This document shows, one piece after another, positions 9,047-9,376 of a stretch of DNA of 54,039 nucleotides. How positions within the stretch are numbered: position 1 is the first letter of the stretch; every line of letters begins with the position of its first letter. Source of the stretch: Methanonatronarchaeales archaeon (GTDB lineage Archaea; Halobacteriota; Methanonatronarchaeia; JAANXF01); contig JAANXF010000022.1 in NCBI GenBank assembly GCA_018263395.1, positions 1 through 54,039 of the forward strand, in the 5' to 3' direction. A program made the translations under genes and the position numbers. The notes under the pieces are model-generated. The model had not been told where the DNA came from. It saw only the letters and a program-made list of their open reading frames with translations, and made no database searches.

Positions 9047-9226
9047 CGTCGCCCATAAATGGAGTCCCTCGACCTAAAAATATATCTCGCAAATAAACGG
9101 GACGTCCGACGAGGGTCGGCGGGACCGCGTGAGCTGTCTTTAACTGTGGTCTTTAACTGTGAATCCAGCCCCGCGCTGGTCGAACGGATGGAGCCTGGCT
9201 CGAAGGCCTCTCCTCTTCGGAAAAGG

Positions 9227-9245
9227 GCCCTTCGGCGCTTGTGAA
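9227..9245 (-). repeat. Conserved tRNA-Leu 3' trailer, copy 2
   Basis: Nineteen bases matching 1722-1740 with one difference, again one base beyond the tRNA 3' end. Sharing at fixed spacing in two divergent tRNA-Leu loci suggests a functional trailer rather than chance. Confidence 0.7.
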
Positions 9246-9246
9246 G

Positions 9247-9376
9247 TGCGGGGGGAGGGATTCGAACCCTCGGACCCCTGCGGGACAAGGTCCTAAGCCT
9301 TGCACCTTTTGCCCCGAGGCTGTTCACCGGGTGAGGCGGACAAACCGTCGGTTTGGCCTGGCTCGGTAACCCCCGC
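9247..9376 (-). tRNA. tRNA-Leu (anticodon TAG) with D-loop intron
   Basis: Acceptor GCGGGGG/CCCCCGC, anticodon stem CAAGG/CCTTG with loop CTTAGGA (anticodon TAG), long variable arm, T-stem GAGGG/CCCTC and discriminator A are all present. About 45 extra bases (9307-9351; ends ambiguous within A runs) interrupt the 3' side of the D-loop. Removing them gives an 85-86 nt tRNA closely parallel to tRNA-Leu(CAG). The junction can form GCC/GGC flanked by A-rich bulges and an inner CCGA/TCGG helix, resembling the bulge-helix-bulge cut by the archaeal splicing endonuclease. CCA is not encoded. Confidence 0.88.

Follow-up and report, generated by a model that had tools for sequence, protein, structure and literature searches.

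An interrupted tRNA-Leu(UAG) gene

The window, the whole stretch of 54,039 nucleotides from a Methanonatronarchaeales archaeon that was analysed, carries on its minus strand at positions 9247-9376 a complete tRNA-Leu(UAG) gene. The gene is 130 nt long including its intron, and its D-loop is interrupted by 45 nt. Across this region the minus strand reads GCGGGGGTTACCGAGCCAGGCCAA[ACCGACGG...CTCGGGGCAAA]AGGTGCAAGGCTTAGGACCTTG...CCCCCGCA, with the intron in brackets between the two exons. The 5′ exon (9353-9376, tRNA positions 1-21), which was delimited by alignment to the intronless Leu tRNAs of relatives, comprises the 5′ strands of acceptor and D-stem and the D-loop up to ...GGCCAA. The 3′ exon (9247-9307, positions 22-73) comprises the rest of the D-stem, the anticodon arm, the variable arm, the T arm and the acceptor with A73, and gave a BLAST match of 99% to the spliced query (positions 19-85). 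The anticodon UAG was located at 9293-9295 by ARAGORN in the spliced sequence. The other Leu tRNA of the window, Leu(CAG) at 1742-1826 of the minus strand, is intronless. Both genes have the stretch AAGCGCCGAAGGGC (minus strand) immediately downstream, at 9220-9246 and 1715-1741, respectively.

In its unspliced form the locus is not called as a tRNA by ARAGORN or by Rfam at the gathering threshold, and the His identity returned by the intron mode of ARAGORN is a false, forced call. Upon removal of 45 nt, ARAGORN reports tRNA-Leu(tag). Owing to the flanking A runs, four registers (9307-9351, 9308-9352, 9309-9353 and 9310-9354) lead to the same 85-nt sequence and thus to an identical mature tRNA. 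The statement of the initial annotation that the tRNA is complete only after removal of some 45 nt was thus borne out, its interval 9307-9351 being that one of the four which lies closest to the 3′ exon. BHB (bulge-helix-bulge) sites are cleaved after the second base of each bulge, and we therefore place the intron at 9308-9352, between tRNA positions 21 and 22, in agreement with the ARAGORN results on the spliced forms and with a comparison of introns at the same site. It is thus not found at the canonical position 37/38, one base 3′ of the anticodon.

A tRNA that arises by chance deletion could be ruled out, as 59 stretches of 150 nt, drawn at random from the window, yielded no tRNA under any deletion of 20-80 nt. 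Eight intronless Leu tRNAs, of which two class-mates contributed seven and the window one, Leu(CAG), served to build a Leu covariance model. With this model the whole unspliced locus scores 93.5 bits over positions 1-85, the intron being treated as an insert, while the intronless Leu genes scored alongside, which are themselves members of the model, reach 102-111 bits. ARAGORN, the alignment and the covariance model thus all find that a complete, conserved tRNA is restored when the insert is removed. Group I introns have a conserved catalytic core and usually exceed 200 nt; an intron of this kind was rejected for the 45-nt insert, and the window has no group I or group II match in Rfam. The gene is the sole Leu(UAG) in the assembly, which is 78% complete, and CTA codons are used by the genome (37 of 8,385 codons in 13 large ORFs). 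Whole isoacceptors in such genomes can escape common tRNA finders.

The initial annotation had described a junction of GCC/GGC with A-rich bulges and an inner CCGA/TCGG helix. This junction is present and corresponds to the minimum-energy fold of the isolated arm. Based on the arm fold and on intron comparison, the central helix is formed by the exon strand GCC (9355-9357, positions 19-20a) and the intron strand GGC (9311-9313), and the inner intron helix by CCGA (9348-9351) and TCGG (9314-9317). The 5′ bulge is AAA (9352-9354) and the 3′ bulge AAA (9307-9309), or AAAA when 9310 is included; in both, the established BHB rules predict a cut after the second A. Compared to the BHB standard of about 4 bp with two 3-nt bulges, the motif has 3 bp and a mismatch, the would-be fourth pair being G18-A, and bulges AAA and AAA(A). 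The folding energy of the isolated arm is ordinary (z -0.5), and when the whole precursor is folded freely, its minimum-energy structure is not the bulge-helix-bulge, so that the case rests on comparison and not on folding energy. Minimum-energy folds of five isolated arms all contain the exon-intron helix, and in them D-loop positions around 15-17 pair with 23-25. This pairing might serve as an outer helix, which is a suggestion only, the bases concerned having been fixed by the search pattern.

The same D-loop site in sister genes and other archaea

Three of the four Leu genes found in the assembly are interrupted at the same D-loop site, Leu(CAA) on contig 2 by 78 nt and Leu(UAA) on contig 18 by 124 nt in addition to Leu(UAG), with Leu(CAG) being intronless; Leu(GAG) was not found in this 78% complete assembly. 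The three introns differ in length and sequence but have the AAA-bulge architecture in common. The cleanest motif is that of Leu(UAA), with a perfect 4-bp GGCC/GGCC helix, an AAA bulge on each strand and a CCCGA/TCGGG inner helix. Leu(UAG) and Leu(CAA) have three pairs and the G18-A mismatch, the central helix of Leu(UAG) being weaker than that of Leu(UAA). The UAG and CAA introns also resemble each other at their ends (ACCGA... and ...GGGGCAAA or ...CGGGCAAA), which may reflect common descent or mere shared constraint. Mobile-element features were sought in the three Leu introns and none were seen.

A non-exhaustive scan of the genome with a T-loop pattern revealed no D-loop intron outside tRNA-Leu; the long inserts in candidate Trp and Gln genes were judged by eye to be canonical introns. 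At least seven other tRNAs of the host have introns at the canonical position, with up to 95 nt (L017, L019, L020, L025, L026, L029, L051; likely also L197 and L206), a number that is unusually high for the phylum according to reviews.

Repeats were observed downstream of several tRNA genes. Two tandem repeats each, of about 94 and about 61 nt, follow tRNA-Leu(UAA) (L088, C18:47700-47940) and tRNA-Ser(GCU) (L210, C20:38340-38470). The repeats terminate in copies of the respective tRNA's 3′ end and have CTCCTCCCGCCAGCAG..CTGCCGGTCAG in common; CTCCTCCCGCCAGCA occurs four times in the genome, in each case within these repeats. Degenerate pieces are also found after Leu(CAA) (L087). The tandem repeats look like scars of repeated integration or like a tiny element that targets tRNA ends. 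In addition, short proteins which by eye resemble ribbon-helix-helix proteins are encoded convergently at tRNA-Leu 3′ ends, at 1541-1740 of the window and at three loci of the class-mate G001 (L093, L095, L096), as would be expected if integration in this class preferred tRNA-Leu.

In the two class-mates (G001, G002), the Leu genes that were read are intronless, Leu(UAG) included. When 90 genomes of the phylum were surveyed with the model, nearly all Leu genes among the matches listed had 82-85 nt. Among 394 genomes of the phylum, a pattern for interrupted D-loops matched 9, namely this host, a Methanocellales MAG family, two genomes from a second family and a further single genome. Members of the Methanocellales family (f13, including UBA148, STD1_76 and Yes46-07) have several interrupted Leu genes each. 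When 84,980 prokaryote species were scanned, the interruption was also found in Methanoperedens, Bathyarchaeota, Asgard archaea, Brockarchaeota, Aenigmarchaeota and others, while the bacterial matches represent chance. Inserts at this site range from 12 to 241 nt in other archaea. One further tRNA, L100 from genome G008, which encodes a homodimeric EndA, shows an apparent 50-nt D-loop intron together with an anticodon-loop intron of about 40 nt. It is tentatively assigned to Ser(UGA), as ARAGORN named it Ala.

For 43 distinct interrupted Leu genes, we compared the exon sequence GGYC with the four bases that precede the last two intron bases, the splice site having been chosen by mature tRNA length alone and not by pairing. 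All four bases pair in 33 of the 43 introns and three of four in another 6, compared to full pairing in 0-2% when the register is slid by 1-3 bases and in 2% of shuffled introns. The intron 4-mers that pair with GGYC vary widely (GACC, GACT, GGCT, GATT, GGTC, GGCC, GATC). The search pattern that retrieved these introns was anchored at this site, and several of the source species or genes are related, so that not every row counts as independent. For four loci from distant archaea (L131, L164, L183, L194) the automatic splice choice is clearly wrong, with a mature length of 87; they were kept among the 43 as failures.

These comparisons bear on the question of whether the gene is functional. A tRNA-Leu pseudogene broken by an insertion, with the working copy lying in sequence that the assembly lacks, would be compatible with the 78% completeness and with the intronless Leu(UAG) of both class-mates. 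The initial annotation had regarded an uninterrupted gene in a relative, together with a pseudogene score from covariance models, as refuting its intron reading. Relatives without the insertion do exist, but the locus reaches 93.5 bits and not a pseudogene score. All exon parts are intact, two further Leu isoacceptors are interrupted at this site by introns that pair in the same way, and the site is used with conserved pairing in many other archaea, which makes a pseudogene very improbable. It is even less probable that the insertion is retained and that the tRNA functions with an enlarged D-loop. The insertion would part the strands of the D-stem, placing 45 extra bases beside A21/A22, which are invariant in the aligned relatives, and same-site inserts from 12 to 241 nt fit removal rather than a structural role. 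An assembly or sequencing artefact, which might be considered for a draft genome, is hardly credible given that three loci on three contigs share the site but not the insert, and each insert can form the splice motif. The reading as a D-loop intron with a relaxed bulge-helix-bulge, which had been proposed initially, is the best one in view of the 93.5-bit match and the two paralogue introns at the same site.

Splicing machinery and proposed processing

The host codes for an EndA with two PF01974 matches, and thus two EndA units, in a single frame of 362 codons located at C6:17.6-18.4 kb. It aligns over its full length with EndA from A. fulgidus (2e-41), all three residues of the Tyr-His-Lys active-site triad are conserved, and the alignment shows no insertion where the Crenarchaea-specific loop sits. 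As judged from this alignment, the enzyme is an A. fulgidus-like homodimeric (alpha-prime-2) splicing endonuclease that lacks this loop. Loop-less alpha-prime-2 enzymes with the triad conserved are likewise encoded in two Methanocellales genomes with D-loop introns and in G008. The RtcB ligase is also encoded by the host (1e-171).

We consider it highly probable that 9247-9376 represents a pre-tRNA-Leu(UAG) with a 45-nt D-loop BHB intron that is cut by EndA and joined by RtcB. We infer that the locus is expressed, being transcribed as a 130-nt precursor. In this precursor, the bases GGC near the end of the intron would pair with GCC at D-loop positions 19-20a and the intron's own ends with each other (CCGA/TCGG), leaving an A-rich bulge on each strand and thus a relaxed bulge-helix-bulge of the HBh′/BHL type; a makeshift outer helix may form between G15-Y16-C17 and positions 23-25. 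The homodimeric EndA would cut within both A bulges and RtcB would ligate position 21 to 22, the released intron probably being circular. The 45-nt intron is very probably cut out by the cell's tRNA-splicing enzyme.

It has been stated that alpha-prime-2 enzymes act on canonical BHB motifs only (PMC4033280; PMC12397907), and a 2014 review named Korarchaeum as the sole archaeon that combines a homodimeric enzyme with non-canonical introns (PMC4033280). However, homodimeric enzymes have also been reported to cleave BHL-type motifs (PMC8707768), and for the A. fulgidus enzyme such cleavage was described at 37/38 in a full-length pre-tRNA (PMC6379350). As the D-loop motif is of the BHL type, the proposed mechanism has precedent. 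The initial annotation had pointed to the rarity of non-canonical introns in euryarchaea. Its reading has to be amended in that the intron is not isolated: three of the four Leu genes found are interrupted, and the same site is used in MAGs of Methanocellales and Methanoperedens, which belong to the same phylum; what is of interest is the alpha-prime-2 host. The three D-loop Leu introns of this genome and those in several isoacceptors each of Methanocellales MAGs occur together with loop-less homodimeric enzymes, as seen in this host and in two Methanocellales genomes. This distribution contradicts the simple published rule that ties non-canonical tRNA introns to broad-specificity endonucleases, and the rule could be tested with a handful of pre-tRNAs and enzymes. 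For Methanocellales, Methanoperedens and this class, we found no account of D-loop introns of this kind in the openly searchable literature. The accessible part of the Methanocella paludicola genome paper mentions four intron-containing tRNAs without giving their positions.

It is conceivable, if rather unlikely, that the D-loop of tRNA-Leu is pre-adapted as a gateway through which introns are gained repeatedly at one site, even under a "strict" alpha-prime-2 endonuclease. Because GGYC is self-complementary when G-U pairs are included, an insertion that duplicates GGYCAAA would create a splice-ready bulge-helix-bulge at once. Such a gateway is supported by 7 of the 43 introns, including the UAA intron of the host and introns from Methanoperedens, which still have the exact exon 4-mer at their end. 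If true, it would break the rule that non-canonical introns need (alpha-beta)2, epsilon-2 or loop-bearing enzymes.

Comparison with known tRNA introns

Non-canonical introns in the D-arm of archaeal tRNAs are known at e.g. 20/21 and 22/23 (PMC4090602). The Leu(UAG) intron resembles these in its D-arm position, in its BHB-type junction and in its expected removal by EndA and RtcB. The known cases occur mainly in Crenarchaeota, Thaumarchaeota, Nanoarchaeota, Korarchaeum and a few thermophilic methanogens. Their hosts mostly have (alpha-beta)2 or loop-bearing enzymes, while the enzyme of this host is a loop-less alpha-prime-2.

With the canonical 37/38 introns of the host, e.g. in Lys(UUU), Thr(CGU), Arg(CCU) and Arg(UCU), the Leu(UAG) intron has in common the pairing between exon 1 and the 3′ end of the intron, the 3-nt bulges and presumably the enzyme. 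It differs in position, in a central helix of 3 instead of 4 bp, and in its outer helix, which is the anticodon stem in the canonical introns and would be a makeshift D-arm pairing in Leu(UAG).

The Leu D-loop introns from Methanocellales (f13) and Methanoperedens occur in the same tRNA family, at the same site and with the same GGYC-AAA junction. Their sequences, with 16 to 241 nt, show no obvious similarity to those of the host; the likeness concerns site and junction. In summary, the feature is of a known kind, a non-canonical BHB tRNA intron, in an unexpected host, and falls within a recurring pattern of Leu D-loop introns.
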